Shown in pieces: positions 13,365-31,455 of a DNA stretch of 31,455 nucleotides. This DNA comes from a virus. The stretch is from positions 1 through 31,455 of IMG/VR virus record IMGVR_UViG_3300031578_000223; one strand, written 5' to 3'. A program made the translations under genes and the position numbers. Each line of letters begins with the position of its first letter. Position 1 is the first letter of the stretch. The notes beneath the pieces are model-generated. The model was not told the origin of the DNA. It worked only from the letters and a program-made list of their open reading frames with translations, and did no database searches.

Positions 13365-15608
13365 ATGGCAATTAAGTATTTAAATAGTATTGATCTAAAT
13401 CAGAATGAATTACAATTTGCTGTAATACAGAATTTAGGTGCTGTCCCTTTAACGTCCACGGAGGGTCAGATTTATTATGACACACTAACGGACAAATTAC
13501 AATTAAAAACAGCTACTGGTTGGGTACCAATTCAATCAGGACCTAATGCTAATACAACTTACACATTAGCTACAGCTCCAACAGGAACTGCAATTAGATT
13601 AACAGGTAGTGATTCTACTACTAATGATGTTACATTTACTGCTGGTAGTAATGTTACTATTACAAGAACAAGTGGTACAGTATTAACAATTGCATCAACA
13701 GATCAATTTGTTGGTACAGTAACTTCAGTATCTGGTGGAACTGGTATTACTATTACGGGTACATCAACAATTAATCCTACTGTAAGTATTCTTTATGCTG
13801 GTGCTTCAAATGCAATTTTAACTGCAGCAGCAGCTACTCCGGTTGGTGCTGATACATTATGGTTTAGTGATGCTACAGATAGTACAATTAAAAAAGCTTT
13901 ATTTTCATCATTCCCTGGATTTGGTGCAGATGGAACTGTTACAAATGTTAGTGGTGCTGCTTCTACATTTGTTTCAATTTCTGTAGCTACTGCAACAACA
14001 ACCCCCGCTATTACAGTTGCTTTAAGTGCAACAGGTACACCAAGTGCATCTACTTATTTAAGAGGTGATAATACTTGGGCTACTTTTGCAGCTGGGTATG
14101 CTGGATGGAATGTAGGTGCTACTACTGGAGTTGCACAATTAGTTGCATCAGGTGCAACTACAAGTTTTTTTGCTGGTTCGGGTATTACAACTACAGTTGC
14201 TCCAAATGCCGGTAATCCAACTGTAACTATTGTGAATACAGGAGTTCTTGCACTTACAGCAGGTACTAATGTTAGTATTACAGGTACAAATTCAAACTTA
14301 ACTATTAACTCAACAGACCAATTCCAAGGTACAGTAACTTCTATTACATTAGCTGCTGGAACAGGAACTGGTACCGCAATTACATCAAGTGGTACATTTA
14401 CATTTGCTGGTGGTACAAACGTTACAACTTCAGTATCTGGAACCACAGTAACAATTAACTCTACTGATCAATTTGTAGGTACTGTAACAAGTGTTGCTAC
14501 AGGGGCCGGTTTAACTGGTGGTACAATTACAAGTTCAGGTACTCTAGCTGTTCAATACACAGGTGCAGCTAACGTTGTAAATTCAGCATCAGCAGTAACT
14601 GCACTAGGTACTGATTCCGTTTTAATTCATGATGCTTCAACAGGTAATGCTGCTAAAGCATTGATTTCAGGTATTTCATTAAGTCAATTAGCTGTACCAA
14701 CAGCTGCTTTATCAATTGGTACACAAAAATTAATTAATGTTGTTGATCCAACAGCAGCTCAAGATGCTGCTACTAAAAATTATGTGGATACTACATTTGC
14801 GGGTTCCGGAGCATTAATTTATCAAGGCGCGTATAATGCCTCTACAAATACACCAAACTTAGATGTTCCCCCAACGGGAACTGTTAATAAAGGATTTACT
14901 TATACCGTAACGGTAGATGGTACTTTCTTTACTGAACAAGTTAGAGTTGGAGATTTGCTTATTGCAAATGTTAATACACCAACCACATTATCTGATTGGA
15001 CTACTGTTCAGAATAACATAGATATTGCTAGTACAACCACGGTGGGTATTGCTAGTTTTGCTGCTGCAAGTTTTGCGGTAAGTGCGGTTGGTGAGGTTAC
15101 TATTAAAAATGGTGGTGTTATATTAGGTACACAAACTACAGGTTCTTATAACCCCACTGTTGGTACAAGTACAAGTATTAATATTGGAAATAATGGTGCA
15201 TCAGGTGTAGAGGTAATAAATACCGTTTCATTAACAAATGGTGTTATTACAGCATATACTTCTGAAAACATTCAATCATCAACTACGGTTAACCCTGGGG
15301 TAATTTTAATTGCAAGTGATGCTGAAGCTACTGCTGGTATTGTAACCACTAAGGCCGTTACTCCAGCACAATTAATTTCTAATGCAATTACTACTGTAAC
15401 AAGTAGAGAATTTAAACAAAATATTTCTGCAACAGGAAGTTTAACACATAACTTGAACTCATATGATATCATGGTACAATTGTATGATACAGTTACTTTT
15501 GAAACTGTATATGCTGATGTAGTAAGAACAAGTGTTAACACAGTCAATATTATATTTGGGGCAGCACCTGCAAATGCCATTAGGGTATTGATTACAAAAA
15601 TAGCATAA
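13365..15608 (+). CDS. Long fibre protein (747 aa) with TDQF repeats
   Basis: The N-terminus MAIKYLNSIDLNQNEL with LTSTEGQIYYDTLTDKLQLK and TGWVPIQ matches the attachment end typical of Bacteroidota phage fibres. The shaft is Thr/Ser/Gly/Ala-rich. TDQF-x-GTVTS units occur near residues 112, 317 and 367, interleaved with GTxxTxSGT strands typical of trimeric beta shafts. About residues 450-475 carry the common fibre phrase LINVVDPTAAQDAATKNYVD. A later ASDAEATAGIVTTKAVTPAQ segment is also fibre-typical. The C-terminal knob (LTHNLNSYDIMVQLYD…) resembles that of the 166-aa protein. It is likely a head or tail fibre that contacts the host surface. Which capsid part it attaches to cannot be told. 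Confidence 0.82.
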   Translation: MAIKYLNSIDLNQNELQFAVIQNLGAVPLTSTEGQIYYDTLTDKLQLKTATGWVPIQSGPNANTTYTLATAPTGTAIRLTGSDSTTNDVTFTAGSNVTITRTSGTVLTIASTDQFVGTVTSVSGGTGITITGTSTINPTVSILYAGASNAILTAAAATPVGADTLWFSDATDSTIKKALFSSFPGFGADGTVTNVSGAASTFVSISVATATTTPAITVALSATGTPSASTYLRGDNTWATFAAGYAGWNVGATTGVAQLVASGATTSFFAGSGITTTVAPNAGNPTVTIVNTGVLALTAGTNVSITGTNSNLTINSTDQFQGTVTSITLAAGTGTGTAITSSGTFTFAGGTNVTTSVSGTTVTINSTDQFVGTVTSVATGAGLTGGTITSSGTLAVQYTGAANVVNSASAVTALGTDSVLIHDASTGNAAKALISGISLSQLAVPTAALSIGTQKLINVVDPTAAQDAATKNYVDTTFAGSGALIYQGAYNASTNTPNLDVPPTGTVNKGFTYTVTVDGTFFTEQVRVGDLLIANVNTPTTLSDWTTVQNNIDIASTTTVGIASFAAASFAVSAVGEVTIKNGGVILGTQTTGSYNPTVGTSTSINIGNNGASGVEVINTVSLTNGVITAYTSENIQSSTTVNPGVILIASDAEATAGIVTTKAVTPAQLISNAITTVTSREFKQNISATGSLTHNLNSYDIMVQLYDTVTFETVYADVVRTSVNTVNIIFGAAPANAIRVLITKIA

Positions 15609-15683: not shown

Positions 15684-16940
15684 ATGGCAATAAAATTTTT
15701 AAGTAGTCAAGATATACAAGCGGGTTCATTAACTGTATCAACTATATCCAATTTAGCCACAGCCTCAGATTTTTTTTTAGTTTCAGATGGTGGTTTAATT
15801 AAATATAGAACTGCTGCTCAAGTAAGTTCTGATATTGGTGGAGGTGGGGGACTTACGTATTTTTCAGAAGGCAATGTTACTTCACCACAAGAAGTTTCCA
15901 GCTTAAGTGCTTTAGGGGTAGCAGCTGATGTATATGCAGCAATAGTTCCCAAAGGTACAGGAGGTATTCTTGCATCAATACCAGATGGAACAGCTGTGGG
16001 CGGTAATGCTAGAGGAACTTATGCTGTAGATTTACAGACAATAAGAAATAATGCTAACCAAGTGGCAAGTGGTGTTTATTCTGCTATAGGTGGGGGAAAT
16101 AGAAATAGAAATGATGCTAATTTTGGCACTGTTGGTGGAGGTTATTCTAATACGTTAACAGGTGCTGGCAATTCTGAGAGCGCAACGATTGTAGGTGGTA
16201 GAGGTAATGTTATAACTTATGGTTATGGCGCTATGATAGGAGGTTATATAAATTCTTCTAGTCATAATGCTACTACAACTTTTGGTATTGGCTGTAGTAA
16301 TGGTGGCCCAGGTGGTACTATATGTGGCGGCCAATATAATACAATAGCTAGTTTTAGCAATAATAGTAGTACTATACTGGGAGGTGCTTATAATCAGATA
16401 ATAGTTAATGGTTATACGTCAGGTTATAATACAGCCAAAGGGTTTAGATCACAGGCATATACTTATGCCATGCACTCTGCTAGTGGTGGGATGTTTTCGG
16501 CTACAGGTGATGCACAGAGAATAGAGTTATTTCTTAGAAGGCTTATAGTAGGTACTACAGTTACTAAATTAACTGTAGATAATAGCGCTAACACAACAAC
16601 TGGTATATGGAAACTAATGCACACCAATGGTATACTTAGAGTGGTTGCAGAGGTTGGTGCGGTTACTACAGTGGCTGACGGAGGAGTGGTTTTGGGTGCA
16701 GTTACAGGAGAGACTTTGACGTTTACCATGAAAGTAATAGGTAATATAATAAGTTTAGTAGGCTCAGTGGTAAGTAGTAATAGACAGGAGGATCCCACAA
16801 TGTCCACTTCGTACTTTACTATAGTTGCAAATAACACAAACAAGGCTATTGATTTTGAATGGACTCCTCCGAGTATTGGTGGGCCACTTTCTACGTACAG
16901 AGTAATGGCCGTAATAAAAGCACTAGAAATTAGATATTAA
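15684..16940 (+). CDS. Second fibre protein (418 aa) with beta-roll repeats
   Basis: It starts MAIKFLSSQDIQAGSLTVST, related to the start of the 747-aa fibre. After GGGGGLTYFSEGN comes a beta-roll shaft at about residues 125-252 with six repeats of the form x-x-(I/V)-(G/C)-GG-x-x-N: SAIGGGNRN, GTVGGGYSN, ATIVGGRGN, AMIGGYIN, GTICGGQYN and STILGGAYN. These resemble the head repeats of YadA-type trimeric adhesins and are common in phage fibres. The C-terminal about 165 residues form a beta knob (LRRLIVGTTVTKLTVDN…ISLVGSVVSSN…YRVMAVIKALEIRY). The codons appear richer in ATA, AGT and GGC than in the 747-aa gene, which may indicate separate acquisition. It is probably an alternative or partner receptor-binding fibre. 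Confidence 0.8.
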   Translation: MAIKFLSSQDIQAGSLTVSTISNLATASDFFLVSDGGLIKYRTAAQVSSDIGGGGGLTYFSEGNVTSPQEVSSLSALGVAADVYAAIVPKGTGGILASIPDGTAVGGNARGTYAVDLQTIRNNANQVASGVYSAIGGGNRNRNDANFGTVGGGYSNTLTGAGNSESATIVGGRGNVITYGYGAMIGGYINSSSHNATTTFGIGCSNGGPGGTICGGQYNTIASFSNNSSTILGGAYNQIIVNGYTSGYNTAKGFRSQAYTYAMHSASGGMFSATGDAQRIELFLRRLIVGTTVTKLTVDNSANTTTGIWKLMHTNGILRVVAEVGAVTTVADGGVVLGAVTGETLTFTMKVIGNIISLVGSVVSSNRQEDPTMSTSYFTIVANNTNKAIDFEWTPPSIGGPLSTYRVMAVIKALEIRY

Positions 16941-17756: not shown

Positions 17757-19976
17757 ATGATACCAATAAATTCAAGTAATTCAACTAATGGATGTGATAG
17801 TATTTCATCCAATTGTGTCATTTGGCAAGGGCCAGATATTAGTTGTATAAATCTTTGTAATGGAGATACAATCAGTGAAGTAACTGCTAAGTTAGCTGAA
17901 TTAGTATGTACAATAATTGAAGATGGTGTTGCAATTAACCCTAATTTAACAGGTTTAGATTTATCTTGCCTTAACATACCGGGTATAACCCCCACTACAT
18001 TAGTTCCTGTTTTACAAGAAATGATTAATGCAATATGTGCAGAAAATTGTTCATGTTCTGAATATACCCTTCCCATAATGACATTACCTAATTGTATGCA
18101 GTATGATGATGCGGCAGGTAATCCGGTATATGAATTACCTTTAGATTTATTTACTGCTTTAATAGCAAATAAAGTTTGTGATATATTTACAACTATAAAC
18201 CTTATTCAAATAACATTAGACAATTATGACACCAGAATATCAGTTTTAGAAGCCTGTGTATTACCATGTACGGGAGCTATAGCAGAAACACAGGTTGTTC
18301 CTACATGTATAATTAATGTTGGTCAATTAACAGATGTATCTGTTTTATTGCTTGCTTTAGAAGTAAGATTTTGTGCATTAGAAACAGCAGTAGGTTTACC
18401 TGCTGCAATTAATGCTGCTATCAGTCAAGGATCGTGTATATTATCAACCACCACTACATTAGCTAATCCATCAATATCATATGGTTCAATACCCGGATGG
18501 AATAATACTCCAACAAATTTAGCACAAAGCACACAAAATATATGGGCTGTGTTATGTGATTTATATAATTCTGTTTTAAACATCCAAACTAATTGTTGTC
18601 CTTCCGGTTGTGAAGGTGTAACTTTTGGTTATAACACATTAAATATATTAGACACTAATGGTGTAATTTCAGGTATCAATTTTAACTTTCAAAATACAAC
18701 GGGAACGGGATCGGTTATTCCAGCAACATTTAATGATTGTGCTGGTAGTACAATTATTACTATTACAGATAGTAATAATGTTTCAATTACTAGTACAGTA
18801 AGTGTATCATCTTTACAAAATTCTGCTAGTGGAGTTACTATATCATTGCCGGGATTAAATATATATAACGGTTTAACTACCAGTGTAGCATTTTGTGTTA
18901 CAGATGGTAGAGATACATGTAGTTATACTATAGTTAAATCAATTGATGGTGTTATACCTTGTCCATTGCCAATTATAACAACCATTACGGAAACAGAAGC
19001 CACCGTTACATTTACAAATTCTTTAGGTATAACCCCTGTTTATATTATAGATATACTTAATAATACAACAAACGCTCTAGTAGCAACATATACTCAAAAT
19101 TCTCCGGGCATTAATGTAACGCATGTCTTTACTGGTTTAGTTCCGAGCACTGAATATAAAACTAGAATAACAATTCAAGTTGGTGGTGCAACAAAAGTTT
19201 GTACTAATACAGTAACATTTACAACAGCGTCTGCTGCAGCTCCATGTAGTAATGGATTAGATGTTGTATTTATATTAGACTATACAGGTAGTATGGGTAC
19301 TGCTATTAATACAGTTAAAGCTGGTATACCATCTACAATATCCACAATACAAACAGCATCTGGTACTAATGATTATAGATTAGCTTTAGTTTTAGCGGAT
19401 GAAGCACTTAGTTCTACTCCAAGTTATGATACTTCAACAGATTATGTTGCATTACCGGCATCACAAAAAGTTATAAATACAGGTAGTGGTGGCAAATATC
19501 AATTTATTACTGCAGTAGAAAAATTTGCCACAAATAATGCAACATCATTTACTACACAATTAAATAAAATTAATACCGGTTCACCTACTGCCTATTGGCC
19601 GTTGGGTGATGGTGCCGGCTTCCCAGAACCTACAGATATGGCAATTGGTTTTGTTATAGAAGGTTTAGATTTTGCAGGTGCATTTAGAACAGGTGTTGCT
19701 AAATATCTATTAATTTATACAGATGCTCCAGCAAGTGGTGATGATGATACATTTAATAATACTGATATTGTAAGATTAAACACATTGGCTCAAAGTTGCT
19801 TATTACAAGGCATTAAGTGTTTTGTATTAGGAGCGGGTGTTGATGAGACATATACCCCAGTTGGCGGAACACAAACATATCCTTGGAGAGTATTTGCAGA
19901 TGCAACGGGTGGTGCGTGGAATCAATCTTATTCAACTGCAACCGTAAACGCATTAATCACCGATGGTTGTGCATAA
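17757..19976 (+). CDS. Virion surface protein with FN3 and vWA domains (739 aa)
   Basis: The N-terminal about 60 residues (SNCVIWQGPDISCINLCNGD, TISEVTAKLAEL) form a Cys-rich docking module that I recall in Bacteroidota phage structural proteins. Residues about 60-290 are Cys-containing and helical. Residues about 290-400 are beta-rich. An FN3-type domain lies at about 400-498 (TVTFTNS…VFTGLVPSTEYKTRITIQV). A von Willebrand A domain fills 500-739. Its MIDAS shows D508-Y-T510-G-S512 (FILDYTGSMG), T626 and D656 (LLIYTDAPAS), a DxTGS variant of DxSxS. vWA domains bind ligands through a metal ion, so host-surface adhesion is the likely role. It is followed by the 186-aa Cys/FN3 gene after 19 nt. 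A second vWA is in the muzzle. Confidence 0.82.
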   Translation: MIPINSSNSTNGCDSISSNCVIWQGPDISCINLCNGDTISEVTAKLAELVCTIIEDGVAINPNLTGLDLSCLNIPGITPTTLVPVLQEMINAICAENCSCSEYTLPIMTLPNCMQYDDAAGNPVYELPLDLFTALIANKVCDIFTTINLIQITLDNYDTRISVLEACVLPCTGAIAETQVVPTCIINVGQLTDVSVLLLALEVRFCALETAVGLPAAINAAISQGSCILSTTTTLANPSISYGSIPGWNNTPTNLAQSTQNIWAVLCDLYNSVLNIQTNCCPSGCEGVTFGYNTLNILDTNGVISGINFNFQNTTGTGSVIPATFNDCAGSTIITITDSNNVSITSTVSVSSLQNSASGVTISLPGLNIYNGLTTSVAFCVTDGRDTCSYTIVKSIDGVIPCPLPIITTITETEATVTFTNSLGITPVYIIDILNNTTNALVATYTQNSPGINVTHVFTGLVPSTEYKTRITIQVGGATKVCTNTVTFTTASAAAPCSNGLDVVFILDYTGSMGTAINTVKAGIPSTISTIQTASGTNDYRLALVLADEALSSTPSYDTSTDYVALPASQKVINTGSGGKYQFITAVEKFATNNATSFTTQLNKINTGSPTAYWPLGDGAGFPEPTDMAIGFVIEGLDFAGAFRTGVAKYLLIYTDAPASGDDDTFNNTDIVRLNTLAQSCLLQGIKCFVLGAGVDETYTPVGGTQTYPWRVFADATGGAWNQSYSTATVNALITDGCA

Positions 19977-22519: not shown

Positions 22520-23197
22520 ATGTCACAGATAATAATAGCAGAAGCAATATCAAGAATAAGAGGCCAGGTTAAAGCTGAGGTTCAAGATTCTTTTGTAACA
22601 GATAGATATATCTATAGTTTAATAGAAAAGTATTCTCAAGTTTTAATGAGAAGGCAAGATTCATTAAACAAATTAATGAAATTTAACTCAGTATGGGCAA
22701 CCCTTCCATACGTTGAAATGGTTGATGTTGACAAAGTAGAAGCATGTTGTTCTGGAATAACTAGTGGTTGTACCATTAAACGTTCAAAACTTAAGTTGCC
22801 ATCAATGGTTGAAGGTTATTGGGGTCCACTGATTAGAACTATAAGTTCTATAGATGGTTCACAAGAACTTCAAGCTACATATCCTGGAGTATATACATCA
22901 ATGACTAAAACAACATCCTTTAAATATAATAGAGTAAAATATTTTTGGTGGTTAAATGGTTACATTTATTCACCTAATATTGAATGGGATGCTGTCAAAG
23001 TTGAAGGTGTATTTAATGATGATATTACAAAGTGGAACTGTGATGAAAAAGATGATTGCACACCAAGATATAAACAACCAATATATGTACCTGAAGCAAT
23101 GTTTGCTGAGATTGAATCTCAAATCATAAATATTATGATGAACACAATGAAGATACCTGGTGAAGATTCTGATAATAAACAAAACATACATAGATAA
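22520..23197 (+). CDS. Tail tubular/ring protein (225 aa)
   Basis: The helical N-terminus (MSQIIIAEAISRIRGQVKAE, DRYIYSLIEKYSQVLMRRQD) is followed by a beta region with the signature EACCSGITSGCTIKRSKLKL and PSMVEGYWGPLIRTISSIDG. The middle is aromatic (RVKYFWWLNGYIY), and a C-terminal helix (FAEIESQIINIMMNTMKIPG) follows. The double-Cys loop followed by C-x-I-x-RSK-x-KLP matches what I recall of crAss-like ring proteins that stack below the portal. Its stop overlaps the next start as TAATG, so the two products are probably coupled. In ΦcrAss001 several such rings lie between portal and muzzle. Confidence 0.78.
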   Translation: MSQIIIAEAISRIRGQVKAEVQDSFVTDRYIYSLIEKYSQVLMRRQDSLNKLMKFNSVWATLPYVEMVDVDKVEACCSGITSGCTIKRSKLKLPSMVEGYWGPLIRTISSIDGSQELQATYPGVYTSMTKTTSFKYNRVKYFWWLNGYIYSPNIEWDAVKVEGVFNDDITKWNCDEKDDCTPRYKQPIYVPEAMFAEIESQIINIMMNTMKIPGEDSDNKQNIHR

Positions 23198-24111
23198 TGG
23201 GAGTATCACATAAATATAGAACATTCACTCAACTATATGAAGATGTTACAGTTGACTTTGCATCTTATTCATTGGAAGGAATGATTGAACCACAACAATT
23301 AATTAAAGTTGCTACTAAAATTAATTATGAATTAGGTTTAAAAATACATAGAACTAAAGAAACAATAATTGATGTTGAACACGGTAGAGCTCAATTACCT
23401 AGAGATTTTGCATATATCAATTATGCATTTCTTTGTGGTGAATATCATATCAATGCAACAATGCCATCAGGTACTCATGTAGAAACTTTCAATGATGTAC
23501 CATATGTTCCGGCACCTGGTGAAGTTGCTGCTTGTAGTACAGGAACTGGATGTGCTGATGTATGTGTAGTTCAGACATGTGAAGATAAAAATAGTTATCA
23601 GTTAGTTCAAAGAATTTCACCAAATCAATATAGAACTTATAGTACTTGGACAGAATTAAAAATTCAAGACATAAATCAAAAGAGTTGTTTTTGTCCTGAC
23701 CTTGCTGCACAAGCACCTGATATTGCGCAAATAGTTGATGGATTTTTAATGACTAACTTTACTAGTGGTAGAGTTTATATAAGTTATCAAGGAGCTATGG
23801 AATCTCCTGATGGAGACTTATTAGTTCTTGATCAACCTCTTTGTAATGAATATTATGAGTATGCCTTAAAACAAAGAATACTTGAAAATATGATATGGCA
23901 AGGAGAACAGGTTGCACCTCAATTACAATTAGTAGAAATACGTTTAAGAGCTGCAAGAAATAATGCCTTATCATTTGTAAACACTCCGGATTTTGCTGAA
24001 ATGCAAAAAGTATTTACAATGAATAGAAGAGCTCAGTATCATAATTACTATAATATGTTTTTGAGTTATGCTCCCCATAATCCAAGGCTTCATTCGGGTA
24101 TCAATACATAA
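23197..24111 (+). CDS. Second tail ring protein (304 aa)
   Basis: Starts at the overlapping TAATG. MGVSHKYRTFTQLYEDVTVD leads a helical domain with QLIKVATKINYELGLKIHRT. A beta part follows with HGRAQLPRDFAYINYAFLCG and a Cys-rich insert (AACSTGTGCADVCVVQTCED). Then come a conserved-looking core (RVYISYQGAMESPDGDLLVL) and a C-terminal helix bundle with RLRAARNNALSFVNTPDFAE and RRAQYHNYYNMFL. Size, layout and position directly before the muzzle fit the crAss-like ring protein that docks the muzzle (called gp43 in ΦcrAss001, from memory). The muzzle gene follows after 45 nt. Confidence 0.8.
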   Translation: MGVSHKYRTFTQLYEDVTVDFASYSLEGMIEPQQLIKVATKINYELGLKIHRTKETIIDVEHGRAQLPRDFAYINYAFLCGEYHINATMPSGTHVETFNDVPYVPAPGEVAACSTGTGCADVCVVQTCEDKNSYQLVQRISPNQYRTYSTWTELKIQDINQKSCFCPDLAAQAPDIAQIVDGFLMTNFTSGRVYISYQGAMESPDGDLLVLDQPLCNEYYEYALKQRILENMIWQGEQVAPQLQLVEIRLRAARNNALSFVNTPDFAEMQKVFTMNRRAQYHNYYNMFLSYAPHNPRLHSGINT

Positions 24112-27100: not shown

Positions 27101-30100
27101 CCAATGCTTTTAAATATTCTAGTTCTGCTATATTTAGCGGTGATACATTTATTACTAGATATACTGAAAAAGTTATCATGCCAATATTTGCACAATACTT
27201 ATTAGGTCAACCTGATGAATTTACATATGATTATTCACAACATGTTAATATTCCATATCCGAGGTTTTGGTTAAATTCTCAAAAATTTGATATGAGTAAA
27301 TTAGGTAGAAAAATAGCATCTTTAGGTATTATTAGTGGAAGCGGTTTAGATGCTTTGCTACCTAATGATTTATTTTATTTAGATAGAGGTAATGATAGTT
27401 GTAATAATCTTATTACTAGCATTGTTAATAACAGTGATCCTAATCCAATGTTTGCTATGAGATATGCATATATGTATTCTCATTCAAATGGTATATTAGA
27501 TTTCTTTGTAGAATCAGAATGTAATTTAGCTCATAGAGATTGGGAGGATAGAGCTGATGCAAGAATATATGACGTATATGGATACAATGATGTAAAAGAG
27601 TTATTTCATGCACAAATAGAAAAGAAAGATAACTTTTATAAATATGATGAATCATTAAGTCCATCTAAATTTGTAACACAGTTAAGTAGTTTTGGAGAAA
27701 TTCAACCAAGGTACTATGATCCATATGTTGCTGCTAATTGTTATGTAAGTTATCCAAAAAGGTTAATTTATTCTCTACAAGCACAAGTTGAATCTAAGAA
27801 AGATTTTTGGAGAGTATTCTTACCGTTTAATTATAAAGATTTTAAAGGTAAAGTAAGTGTAATTAAACCTATAGATAAAAGTGGGGCTATAGTATTCTTT
27901 CCTTATTTATCTCCGCAGATGTTCCAAGGATTGGATATATTAAAAACACAGTTAGATACTAAACTTACTATTGGTGATGGTGGATTATTTAGTCAACCAT
28001 TCCAAAATGTTGTTAATTCAGATTTATCAAATGAATATGGTTCTTGTGAAAGTTTAAGAAGTGTTATGAATACTCCTGTGGGTTTGTTCTTTATATCTCA
28101 AGCTCAAGGAAAAATATTTCATTTTACAGGTCGAACACTAGATCCAATATCCAATAAGGGTATGAAGTGGTGGTTTAATAAATATTTACCATCTCAACTT
28201 GTTAAACAATATCCTGAATTAGAATCTTCACCATTATCTGATAATGCAGTAGTTGGTGTAGGTTGTCAAACAATCTATGATCCCAATGATGATATAGTTT
28301 ACTTTATGAAAAAAGACTATAGAGTTAAGGCTCAGTATATTGCAGATATTACGTATAATGAAATCATAGGTTTTTCATTAAATAAAAATCTTATTATGTT
28401 GGGTGATCCAATATTTTTTGATGATTGTTCGTGGACTGTAAGTTATGACCCCAAATCTCAAGCTTGGATATCATTCCATGATTGGCATCCAGAATTTGCA
28501 TTGCCCAGTATTAATCATTTCTTTACAACAAAAACATTGCTCACAGATTTTCCCCAATGTCCACCGGGATATAATTTTAACTCTACTAATGGTTTATGTG
28601 AAAGATCCCTTAATATTGATGAATTAGCAATAGTTACTGTAGATCAACTTAACTCTGTTGTTAATGGTGGACCTTCAGATTGCTTAGTGGATATTGTTAT
28701 TGCAATGGACGTATCAGACTCAACAAACTCATTAGGCCGTAAACAAGCTCAATTAGCATGGTTAGATGCATTCTTAAATGATTCAAACATAACAACACCA
28801 ATGGCTGCAGGAAGAATGCAGATAGGCTTTACTGCTTGGGATGATTTAAATATAAACTATGATATACCCAATCCTTTAGGTGGTACTTGGACAATGAGTA
28901 ATACAGTTACCCCAACACAAGTTGCGGCATGGTATAATGCTAATTGGACAAGTATGGGCACCGATGTTTCTTTAGGAATGTCTGCTGGTCAAACAAGATT
29001 AAATAGTAAAGCATCTAGCCAGTTAGGTGATAGAGCTTCACAACCCTTTTTTAAACAAATTTTAATATTAGTTACAGATACAACAAGTAATCCTGGAAAT
29101 ATTGGTTGTCCATATCAAGGTATTGGTGTTTCTCCAAGTGCAGCTGGTCCGGCAAATCAAAGAGTATATGCATTATTTTGTGGTGCAAATACTTCTATAC
29201 CAGTTCCGGGTGTATTATCAAATATATCTTGTACAGCAGGACCCGTAAATGTTGATGGATATCAATTTGGAATTAATGCGGCTGTGCCTGCAACGTTTAC
29301 GGCTGTAGCAACAACTATTGCAAATTCTGTTTGTGCAGTTCCATTTGTATGTGATTGCGCACCCGGTTACACAAAAGTATTTTTTAATACAGCAACTAAT
29401 GTTTATACTTCACCAACTGGTATATGTGATAATATTACACCACCCGTATGTAGAAAAGTAAGCTGCACATGTCCGGAATCTCCTGCTGGTAGTATTACAA
29501 CAACAACGGGAAATTGTGATGATGTTTATTTACTTGGGGATCCAACATATGTAAATCCAGATCCTCAAATTTGTAATTTTTATAAATATGAATCAACACC
29601 GCCTAATTTTAATGTTGGTTCATTTTGGAGACATAATGTTAGATGTGATAGTTTTTCTAATTTCTATGGTACTAATTATCCATGGGAAGTAGAATTGATC
29701 TCTAATACTGGGCAAATAGTTAATACTGTTAGAAGTATGGAATATCAATTAGAGACTTATGTGTACAAAGGTGATATGGGATTTGCTTGTAATGATGATA
29801 GATGGGAAGATTTAAACTTTAACTTTGACCAATCAGTTATTTATAATAATGAGCAAGTATCCGGGTTATTACAATTGACTCCAACACCATATAATAATCC
29901 TGTATTAGAATTGAGCTACCCTATAATAAATTTGAATAACATAAATATTCTGTGTTCTAAGGTAGAACAAAAATATAGATTCAATCAGTTTTATGATATT
30001 ACTAATGATAGAGGAGAATTTACAAACGTTGAACAAGCAATTTGGGATACACAACCAAATGGATATATTAAAGATTTAAATACTACAAATTTAAGTTATA

Positions 30101-30231
30101 ATAAAGCCCCATTACAACACAAGAAGTTTAGACATTATTATAACAATGTTATTTTAAGAAGAGTTAATTCAGGAAATAGAAAGATGTTATTAAGATTGAA
30201 TAACACTAAATTACTTTTATCAATGAGATAA
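24157..30231 (+). CDS. Giant tail muzzle protein (2024 aa) with inserted vWA domain
   Basis: Probable homologue of the crAss-like muzzle (gp44 in ΦcrAss001, from memory; P22 gp10-like stabilisation role), forming the tail tip. The start is typical (NSFLKGMNKDITQSMEPNES, WRHARNAMNNSTDGDLGVIG). Later blocks include GCQTIYDPNDDIVYFMKKDY, WISFHDWHPEFALPSINHFF and SFWRHNVRCDSFSNFYGTNY. Between the last two, about residues 1460-1807 look inserted: C1468-PPGY, then a vWA domain at about 1505-1725 with MIDAS D1518-V-S1520-D-S1522, T1602 and D1641, then C1732-D-C-APGY and CRKVSCTCPES. The insert would lie on the exposed tip and may bind host receptors. The stop overlaps the next start (TAATG). Confidence 0.85.
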   Translation: MAQQNENPGTSSVITNSFLKGMNKDITQSMEPNESWRHARNAMNNSTDGDLGVIGNEPSNLQCGIIPYTIIGAIHRYGDQWVVFSTDDINSEIGKFDDSLCQYEVIVNDPCLNFNRKYLITGAAKENFDCTWQVYWDDSNNPSRTLNIDNVPWIQTVSSAPGDPCITYKDTTSLNCEKIRLAPLLDTPCVSLSKSIDGGMLQNGAYQAFIAYTENEQRVTDYIGVSNIQTLWSHSGTGGSLNIKVSNLDKDYDYYELVLLVRNQGQTYAKRIGLYSTQQQDVNIDYIDDTLLAIDLKIIPQRSPAYEKSNAMYVVNDWLIRQGPITQFDFNYQPIANEIKVNWVANQIDASYYHLGGNKMGFLRDEQYAFFIRWIYNTGERSSSYHIPGRAPRPFTTPSGTYLETDIIYGANVLDTAGDPLYKVYNTGTITAQNLTEVQPDGSLIIARGEMGYWESTERYPADRPDIWGNLCGKPIRHHKFPTEEVGNADSPLHISTTGGDLINVLGVEFTNIGKPKNNDGSYITNIVGYEILRGSRAGAKSILAKGLFRNMRKYTIPNAEKPIGSTVQGLYPNYPYNDLRPDIYFHDGNANSIHRTEGCDNFTQSLNTFKSLGSAPPIDGDPSGYSKKVFTFSSPDLMFTKPFLNAYETRLYGYLSGNQLGSFIASEDHPQFKLLRNGSALMGAIIGLGYAIAQVQGDRGTHRTSGSVGPWMANGDSAGIVANALLNTTGASANAGIINGAVITYESLDSTLGLADLWTGGAGLEFANGVFSNTTSLVGIAPAGTGGEYTITNNKNTPLSQLPFGFKLIVTTFTTAANIAIGGNEIIELIYNLVNKSDFVLKYNSAGFFNKFDKINTGLFRIKNTDSNYLGQSFQSFDSGKYKINNLFRPSTVAVSLKEDITEPSVNDTSRFTIGGDINTNGTVNVYSGDYLTNPSDKKIRPISAYYGALKFNFDNQYGQLDGIKQVQMRGCVEYLDRTKPNAFKYSSSAIFSGDTFITRYTEKVIMPIFAQYLLGQPDEFTYDYSQHVNIPYPRFWLNSQKFDMSKLGRKIASLGIISGSGLDALLPNDLFYLDRGNDSCNNLITSIVNNSDPNPMFAMRYAYMYSHSNGILDFFVESECNLAHRDWEDRADARIYDVYGYNDVKELFHAQIEKKDNFYKYDESLSPSKFVTQLSSFGEIQPRYYDPYVAANCYVSYPKRLIYSLQAQVESKKDFWRVFLPFNYKDFKGKVSVIKPIDKSGAIVFFPYLSPQMFQGLDILKTQLDTKLTIGDGGLFSQPFQNVVNSDLSNEYGSCESLRSVMNTPVGLFFISQAQGKIFHFTGRTLDPISNKGMKWWFNKYLPSQLVKQYPELESSPLSDNAVVGVGCQTIYDPNDDIVYFMKKDYRVKAQYIADITYNEIIGFSLNKNLIMLGDPIFFDDCSWTVSYDPKSQAWISFHDWHPEFALPSINHFFTTKTLLTDFPQCPPGYNFNSTNGLCERSLNIDELAIVTVDQLNSVVNGGPSDCLVDIVIAMDVSDSTNSLGRKQAQLAWLDAFLNDSNITTPMAAGRMQIGFTAWDDLNINYDIPNPLGGTWTMSNTVTPTQVAAWYNANWTSMGTDVSLGMSAGQTRLNSKASSQLGDRASQPFFKQILILVTDTTSNPGNIGCPYQGIGVSPSAAGPANQRVYALFCGANTSIPVPGVLSNISCTAGPVNVDGYQFGINAAVPATFTAVATTIANSVCAVPFVCDCAPGYTKVFFNTATNVYTSPTGICDNITPPVCRKVSCTCPESPAGSITTTTGNCDDVYLLGDPTYVNPDPQICNFYKYESTPPNFNVGSFWRHNVRCDSFSNFYGTNYPWEVELISNTGQIVNTVRSMEYQLETYVYKGDMGFACNDDRWEDLNFNFDQSVIYNNEQVSGLLQLTPTPYNNPVLELSYPIINLNNINILCSKVEQKYRFNQFYDITNDRGEFTNVEQAIWDTQPNGYIKDLNTTNLSYNKAPLQHKKFRHYYNNVILRRVNSGNRKMLLRLNNTKLLLSMR

Positions 30232-31455
30232 TGGAGAAAAAAATACAACATACAGAACGTAGAGGATTACCCGGTGGTCCAAATGAAATGCTTACTTATA
30301 TTACAGGAGTATTTTCTACAGAAGGATTCAGAATGGATAGTCCAGATGTAAATAATGAAGTAAACATTATTCCATCTGGTTCTATTACTATGAAAGAAAG
30401 AGATGGTAGCCCTTTAAGAAAGGGACCAATTCATGGTATAGATAATCTAGGTAATGAGCAAGTTATGTATCCAGGATTTGATTATCAGTTTCCAGGTACA
30501 GAAGTAACAGAAACATTAATAGCCAAAATGGGAGGTGCTCTATTAGATAAAACTATTGAGTGTGGTAACTGCGGTTGGAAATGGAAAGCTGCTGACGGTG
30601 GAAGTGATTTAACAACTTGTCATAAATGTGGCGGAGAAGCAAAGATAAAAGCTCAAGATGGAAAAGAAACTTCTTGGATTGACTATATAAATCCTTATAA
30701 TTGGGGAGTTACAGATTATTCTGATAAAGGAAATTTTAATTCTGCTTATGCTGCTGCAAGAAAAGCAGGAGAAAAAGAATTTATGTGGAATAATCAGAGA
30801 TTTAATACTACTCAAGTAGGTGAAGATAAAAAACCTGATACTAATTTTTTAAATAAAGCATTAGCAGATAACGTAACAGCATACGGTTTCTGGAGTGGTG
30901 GAAATGATAATGTTGCTCCCAATAAAGAATTAGCAGCAATTAATGATAAATATAACCGGTTAAGAGAAGAAGCAAATAAAAAATACAATTATGTTCCAAG
31001 AACATCTAAAGAACAACCAAGAGTTGCAGTTCCTACAGAATTAAGAAAAATCTATAAAAAAAATACAGAAGAATATAATAAAGAAATTTCTAAAATAGCA
31101 TATAATGTAAAAACTGGAGAAAAAATAAAATTACCAAAACATATAACTCCAAATACATTTAGTAAGAGAGTAGAAAATTATGTGGAAGGTAGTGATATAC
31201 ATTTTCCAAAGGTAAGACCAGCTAATATTAATGCTTCACAAGATGCTTTAAGTATTCATCAAGGACAACCTCAAAAATACAATTCATTTGAACTTTCTAA
31301 GTATAAACCTACTGTAACTAAAAATAATAATGTAAAAAATTATGATTTCAGGGGGGATGCTAAACAAGAACTTGAAGATGATTTATTTAAGTATAAAAAC
31401 TCAGATTTTATTAATTCAAAAGAAAAATTTAGACAAGTTACAGGTAGTCATGTTG
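30231..31455 (+). CDS. Cargo-like internal virion protein with zinc ribbon (3' partial)
   Basis: ATG at 30231 overlaps the muzzle stop, and the frame stays open to the window end (over 400 codons, first residues MEKKIQHTERRGLPGGPNEM). A segment RKGPIHGIDNLGNEQVMYPG plus FDYQFPGTEVTETLIAKMGG is followed by a zinc ribbon, C111-x2-C114-x15-C130-x2-C133. A hydrophilic Lys/Asn/Glu-rich region then looks extended and unstructured. In ΦcrAss001 the gene after the muzzle encodes a large cargo protein injected with the DNA (gp45, from memory), and this N-terminus and position fit. The ribbon may bind DNA or stabilise the N-terminus. Total length cannot be known here. Confidence 0.75.
   Translation, partial: MEKKIQHTERRGLPGGPNEMLTYITGVFSTEGFRMDSPDVNNEVNIIPSGSITMKERDGSPLRKGPIHGIDNLGNEQVMYPGFDYQFPGTEVTETLIAKMGGALLDKTIECGNCGWKWKAADGGSDLTTCHKCGGEAKIKAQDGKETSWIDYINPYNWGVTDYSDKGNFNSAYAAARKAGEKEFMWNNQRFNTTQVGEDKKPDTNFLNKALADNVTAYGFWSGGNDNVAPNKELAAINDKYNRLREEANKKYNYVPRTSKEQPRVAVPTELRKIYKKNTEEYNKEISKIAYNVKTGEKIKLPKHITPNTFSKRVENYVEGSDIHFPKVRPANINASQDALSIHQGQPQKYNSFELSKYKPTVTKNNNVKNYDFRGDAKQELEDDLFKYKNSDFINSKEKFRQVTGSHV

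Follow-up and report, generated by a model that had tools for sequence, protein, structure and literature searches.

The muzzle (tail nozzle) protein of the Crassvirales-like phage analysed here carries an insert of about 365 residues, comprising a cysteine-rich stalk and a predicted vWA domain with a complete MIDAS. Comparison with relatives, some of which lack the insert, keep only its stalk or carry a PA14-like version, and near-identical pairs of which have exchanged vWA domains, strongly supports its being a swappable cassette, as the initial annotation had proposed. We consider it probable that this is an exchangeable adhesion cassette whose vWA domain would bind a receptor, alongside the fibres.

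Genome setting of the muzzle

The window, meaning the whole stretch of DNA that was analysed, is an entire virus record of 31,455 bases (Table 1). It belongs to a Crassvirales-like phage: a crass major capsid protein (Crass_capsid match, E 5.7e-30), Ring 1 and Ring 2 are all present, and the portal is P22-like. The muzzle is homologous to gp44 of phage crAss001 (PF25731) and, by this homology, would form a hexamer at the tail end. For crAss_MUZ_C, which is present in gp44, Pfam returned no match at E 1 for the window muzzle. Two products encoded upstream, at 13365-15608 and 15684-16940, are putative fibre or decoration proteins of low complexity and repetitive sequence, the first of which matches a PHROG head-decoration family.

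Table 1. Coordinates of the muzzle cassette and associated features in the window.
Feature	Position	Strand	Evidence
Tail Ring 2 protein	22520..23197	+	PF25702, E 1.5e-15
Tail Ring 1 protein	23197..24111	+	PF24228, E 3.5e-9
Muzzle (tail nozzle) protein, 2024 aa	24157..30231	+	Pfam PF25731 crAss_MUZ, E 4.5e-28; directly 3' of the Ring 1 gene
Left anchor block, residues 1437-1459, WISFHDWHPEFALPSINHFFTTK	28465..28533	+	Conserved in muzzles with and without cassette
Whole cassette (stalk and vWA), residues about 1457-1820	28525..29616	+	Absent in 16 survey loci, csAssE-Sib, phi4:1 and Lbo-JY46
N-terminal stalk module, residues 1460-1508, CPPGY-x8-C	28534..28680	+	C1468 and C1481 invariant in 57 relatives; kept in stalk-only relatives
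Predicted vWA domain, residues 1509-1726, swapped payload	28681..29334	+	AF2 pLDDT >90; VIA-align Z 18.5 to 6tnj; Pfam VWA in 14/57 relatives
MIDAS motif 1, D1518-x-S1520-x-S1522	28708..28722	+	Invariant in 57 relatives
MIDAS Thr, T1602	28960..28962	+	55/57 relatives
MIDAS Asp, D1641	29077..29079	+	56/57 relatives
C-terminal stalk modules, residues 1727-1820, C-x-CAPGY ... CRKVSCTC ...	29335..29616	+	Invariant Cys; kept in stalk-only relatives
Right anchor block, residues 1822-1833, SFWRHNVRCDSF	29620..29655	+	Conserved with and without cassette
Fibre-like structural protein, 739 aa: constant N-terminus, fn3 stalk, C-terminal vWA (residues about 502-739)	17757..19976	+	Pfam VWA

Insertion site

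The cassette is inserted at a β-turn between two anchors, WISFHDWHPEFALPS, which begins at residue 1437 of the window muzzle, and SFWRHN, at 1822. In cassette-less relatives the anchor blocks lie 10-25 residues apart, and the reference points are separated by 16-25 residues in 15 of the 16 empty survey forms. The initial annotation described the two blocks as nearly adjacent in crAss-like muzzles, and they are so in the relatives without the insert, csAssE-Sib, phi4:1 and Lbo-JY46 among them. Alignment finds the segment missing from many relatives, so it is not part of a core fold common to all. The insert first placed at residues 1460-1807 is thus real, but its bounds are wider, at about 1457-1820, with the vWA domain itself at about 1509-1726.

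Pfam crAss_MUZ ends at residue 1235 in gp44, 1468 in L137 and 1396 in L177, in each case at the turn that takes the cassette, and direct alignment to gp44 agrees on a site at about residues 1235-1243. The distal crass domain and IG2 of gp44 end at residue 1021 (PMC10172136), and the cassette site therefore falls in the later propeller/C-terminal part. By alignment it maps to the C-terminal propeller region and, from the domain order of gp44, would be a hairpin of a propeller blade. On these two mappings a location in the distal crass domain was rejected; the tail-tip position is not supported in the form given in the initial annotation, since the site lies past the IG2/crass insertion. A search of the PDB with the muzzle profile did not match gp44, the link being made by Pfam and multiple alignment. 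The AlphaFold2 model assigns the cassette flanks a pLDDT of 35-60, values at which the orientation of the stalk is unreadable; the vWA domain would be exposed outward.

Predicted fold and MIDAS of the vWA domain

In the AlphaFold2 model, 310 of 483 residues, which take in the stalk and the vWA domain, have a pLDDT of at least 90, and strands and helices alternate in vWA order, giving the Rossmann-type fold that had been anticipated. Its best PDB match by VIA-align is the pilus-tip vWA of Mfa5 (6tnj; Z 18.5, rmsd 2.8, 180 residues aligned). The top Foldseek and VIA matches are vWA domains, with CMG2 and integrin I domains tying with Mfa5. The family profile, compared with the PDB, retrieved vWA chains only (PTMP1, 1.5e-7; integrin α-1 and α-2 I domains, E about 1e-4). 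Taken on its own, the window sequence gave no match to Pfam VWA; the best match among the 14 of 57 aligned relatives that have one is 1.6e-7.

The MIDAS residues D1518, S1520, S1522, T1602 and D1641 sit exactly where the initial annotation placed them, and the motif is complete as claimed: all five occur in 54 of the 57 relatives, so their presence is not due to chance, and the other three vWAs are short of one residue. Outside MIDAS-type positions conservation is lowest in the vWA, where the mean top-residue frequency is 0.52 vs 0.83 and 0.80 in the flanking core. The model and the motif together indicate that the cassette holds a vWA domain with a complete MIDAS, which would most likely bind a divalent metal. 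This metal site is not always needed, because L041 and L056 have degenerate vWAs that lack a MIDAS at this position in the muzzle, and because of the three incomplete motifs.

The stalk and the vWA domain as nested units

Before the vWA domain, CPPGY-x8-C runs from C1468 to C1481, as first reported. A cysteine motif also follows it, in the form C1732-x-C1734-APGY rather than CAPGY-x-C, and the next cysteine is C1757. Cysteines 1734, 1765, 1770, 1772, 1787 and 1806 are likewise invariant among the 57 relatives. The stalk module weakly resembles the Cys motifs of cEGF and CBM_14.

Muzzles with the stalk alone are found in several lineages. One of these is the window's own clade, of nine members and with a support of 99, where L008, L043 and L047 have this form. 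Such muzzles retain C-x-C-xPGY and nearly all of the other stalk cysteines. The idea of a cassette bounded by Cys hinges is not supported as worded: the Cys modules that flank the vWA belong to a longer stalk that is retained when only the vWA is lost. Because the stalk remains in muzzles without the vWA, the vWA and the stalk-plus-vWA have evolved as separate, nested units, and the mobile unit does not end at the Cys modules. Stalk-only muzzles also have no cysteine pair matching C1509 and C1726, which brackets the vWA, and the loss of this pair in stalk-only forms suggests that it may form a disulphide clamp at the vWA base.

States of the site among relatives

As survey query we used the 203 residues after the insert, which are blind to cassette content; this returned 80 loci, 78 of which were classed automatically. 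A vWA stands at the site in 43 of the 78, 16 sites are empty, eight hold the stalk only and five hold a PA14-like (PA14/lectin-like) domain (L058, L131, L133, L138, L139). The remainder are two degenerate vWAs, one vWA with a degenerate vWA (L135), one PA14-like domain with a degenerate vWA (L145) and two others; both unclassed loci, L162 and L166, have vWA motifs on inspection. The stalk-only and empty forms show the payload to be dispensable. Both muzzle flanks lie in one ORF in 79 of 81 cassette loci, and in the other two, where the locus or ORF is at a contig end, one flank was not found.

The PA14-like payload model, of low confidence (pLDDT 58), resembles the PA14, CBM6/35 and Flo1/Epa1 folds, which bind sugars (E about 1e-3 to 1e-2), and some of these payloads have weak Pfam PA14 matches. 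We treat a PA14/CBM-like alternative payload as a candidate, a lead from modelling.

In a distinct sister group (such as L155, L162, L166, L170 and L171), the neighbouring loop upstream, which runs from KKDY to the SWT strand, holds a further vWA-type motif, IVFAIDSSNS, along with Cys segments like those of the stalk; muzzles of this group would therefore have two vWAs per subunit. The muzzle of Cellulophaga phage phi4:1 (L185, 7783-8739) has about 290 residues inserted in the same KKDY-SWT loop. By eye this insert looked like a vWA (DIYATFDTTSM, FIDESNSS), but the hhalign probability is 0.2% and the assignment was rejected.

Payload exchange between near-identical phages

On the core tree, cassette state changes at least 16 times (shuffled mean 33.8), and empty L050, L134, L136, L060, L143 and L146 group with vWA-bearing L118, L037 and L130 with a support of 100. 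Loci L004 and L009 are 98.5% identical in the core, 92-94% in the stalks and 45% in the vWA; at the DNA level they are 92-100% identical over 12 kb, fall to 60-75% inside the vWA and return to 97-99%. Core and vWA identities are 99.2% and 59.6% for L017-L021, 97.9% and 68% for L067-L071, and 90.8% and 32% for L161-L163; L021 and L022 are 87% identical in both. In the vWA tree, L009 stands beside L036, L005 and L020, and L017 beside L067. AU tests on groups picked after the identities were seen rejected a common vWA origin for L004 and L009 (p 2e-33) and for L017, L021 and L033 (p 4e-96). These vWAs have recombined between close phages, and such modular exchange is typical of receptor-binding modules.

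Nearly all loci are metagenomic contigs, and chimeras can arise in flanks as similar as these. This would suit a view in which the insert is ordinary variable sequence within the muzzle core and the swaps are assembly chimeras. We hold this to be extremely improbable and already contradicted: clean in-frame states recur in many independent contigs, the core tree requires 16 or more state changes, and empty sites occur in the separately sequenced complete genomes of phi4:1, Lbo-JY46 and csAssE-Sib.

The same comparisons bear on a structural role, in which the vWA bridges the muzzle to a fibre, a ring or a neighbouring muzzle subunit and stabilises the tail. Domains of the vWA type often serve assembly, and the many conserved Cys residues fit such a role. 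So does the hexameric state of the muzzle by homology to gp44 (PMC10172136). However, the vWA is absent or replaced by an unrelated domain while the rest of the muzzle is conserved, and vWAs 45% identical on cores 98.5% identical argue against a co-adapted virion partner, leaving a structural role improbable.

The gene just after the muzzle (30231-31455) keeps an N-terminal part of about 110 aa, with a C-terminal part wholly different among near-identical phages; its counterparts are L004 14117-16804, L009 13388-15247, L011 14111-17614 and L043 13442-15169, the last with a C-terminal part that is lytic-transglycosylase-like by eye. It is a second swap hot spot and possibly encodes ejected cargo or an effector.

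A scan of bacterial genomes for a host origin of the vWA gave one match, WLWP01000004.1 (L188), filed in a Pseudomonadales MAG. This contig of 114.7 kb, a crAss-like genome size, has the crAss muzzle together with the cassette and is probably from a phage, so no cellular source was found; its presence in the MAG would reflect mis-binning or an unusual host.

A second vWA on a fibre-like protein

From its architecture and position, the product of 17757-19976 is presumably a fibre. Pfam VWA was matched by all 30 of its aligned relatives (best E 5.3e-9); in this vWA the first Asp and TD are invariant, and the middle Thr is present in 31 of 48. The C-terminus is replaced in the close relatives L024, L025, L018, L056, L061, L062 and L064, that of L025 being another DxSGS domain. 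A recent duplication giving rise to the muzzle and fibre vWAs was not supported (hhalign probability 4.5-5.5%), and the two are not close copies.

Proposed function

In the mechanism that we propose, a disulphide-rich stalk of short C-x-PGY modules would emerge from the muzzle hexamer at a β-hairpin turn of its C-terminal propeller region and present an integrin-I-like vWA with an intact MIDAS, in six copies per virion. The vWA would most likely bind a divalent metal, which would in turn engage an acidic group of a host-surface protein or glycan. Selection by changing hosts may then lead to payload loss, replacement and recombination at the conserved flanks, with an effect on host range. Whether binding is coupled to the opening of the gate (gate loop, propeller blade 4) is speculation.

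For the swappable adhesion cassette of the initial annotation, the swapping is strongly supported by the state changes and vWA exchange, and we infer the adhesion. Receptor binding is favoured by retention of all five MIDAS residues in nearly all relatives despite the vWA being otherwise the least conserved, and by the second, swapped vWA that ends the fibre-like protein of the same phages. Contact with the cell surface has been proposed for the crAss001 muzzle (PMC10172136). Counting against receptor binding, the cassette site lies in the propeller/C-terminal region, away from the distal domain for which cell contact is proposed, some vWAs have a degenerate or incomplete MIDAS, and the payload is dispensable.

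The main rival is that the cassette is adhesive without choosing the host, keeping virions near hosts on particles, mucus-like polymers or algal glycans, as has been suggested for Ig-like domains on the surface of other phages. Payloads of vWA or PA14/lectin-like type would serve this too, and some close relatives have no payload, as expected of an accessory function. Repeated swaps between near-identical phages are, however, typical of receptor-binding modules, and the nozzle location and the parallel vWA on the fibre-like protein suit cell contact; adhesion without setting host range is accordingly unlikely, though it retains a real chance.

With receptor binding as the preferred reading, the exchanges suggest that these phages change their grip on cells by swapping one module, which can be lost, replaced or supplanted by one of sugar-binding type. 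The odds seem even that a lineage of crAss-like phages uses the nozzle as a platform for exchangeable receptor binders that are metal-dependent and integrin-like, giving MIDAS-based host recognition, in which a fixed Cys-rich stalk on the propeller takes vWA or PA14-like heads; this broader reading includes the two vWAs per subunit of the sister group and the fibre-like vWA.

Host recognition is unexplained for most crAss-like phages, and the cassette offers a defined, exchangeable candidate receptor-binding module. Near-identical phages with empty, stalk-only and swapped sites supply natural controls, so the question is directly testable. If the MIDAS is used, a podovirus nozzle would have an integrin-like, metal-dependent adhesion mechanism.

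Comparison with known systems

Exchange of receptor-binding tips, vWA adhesins and muzzle length variation are each already known. In the literature searched, we found no swappable MIDAS vWA or PA14-like head in a crAss-like nozzle and no paper joining 'crAss-like' with 'von Willebrand', and none of 50,697 annotated phage records matched the cassette. Elsewhere in phages, vWA proteins include a virion protein of PaMx28 and the product of a separate crAss001 gene, gp52.

Variation in muzzle length by insertions has been described, in the crass and IG2 domains (PMC10172136); the window cassette sits at a different place, where crAss001 gp44 has just a short turn (AFK|DGKMW, about 1235). The closest structural counterpart, the type V pilus tip protein Mfa5 of Porphyromonas gingivalis (6tnj; PMC7835359), likewise has a complete MIDAS, and its vWA too interrupts a different domain of the adhesin. 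Identity is 14%, and Mfa5 is a cellular (Bacteroidota) pilus adhesin with an isopeptide-stabilised domain (PMC7835359), whereas the cassette stands on a phage nozzle with a Cys-rich stalk. The integrin α I domain is also a MIDAS vWA inserted in a β-propeller, that of the α subunit; integrins are animal receptors, and the shared propeller insertion, which depends on the domain mapping to gp44, would be convergent. Receptor-binding domain exchange in phage tail fibres similarly pairs a conserved stem with a recombining tip, but in the window phage and its relatives a vWA or PA14-like payload is exchanged at a turn in the middle of the nozzle protein.
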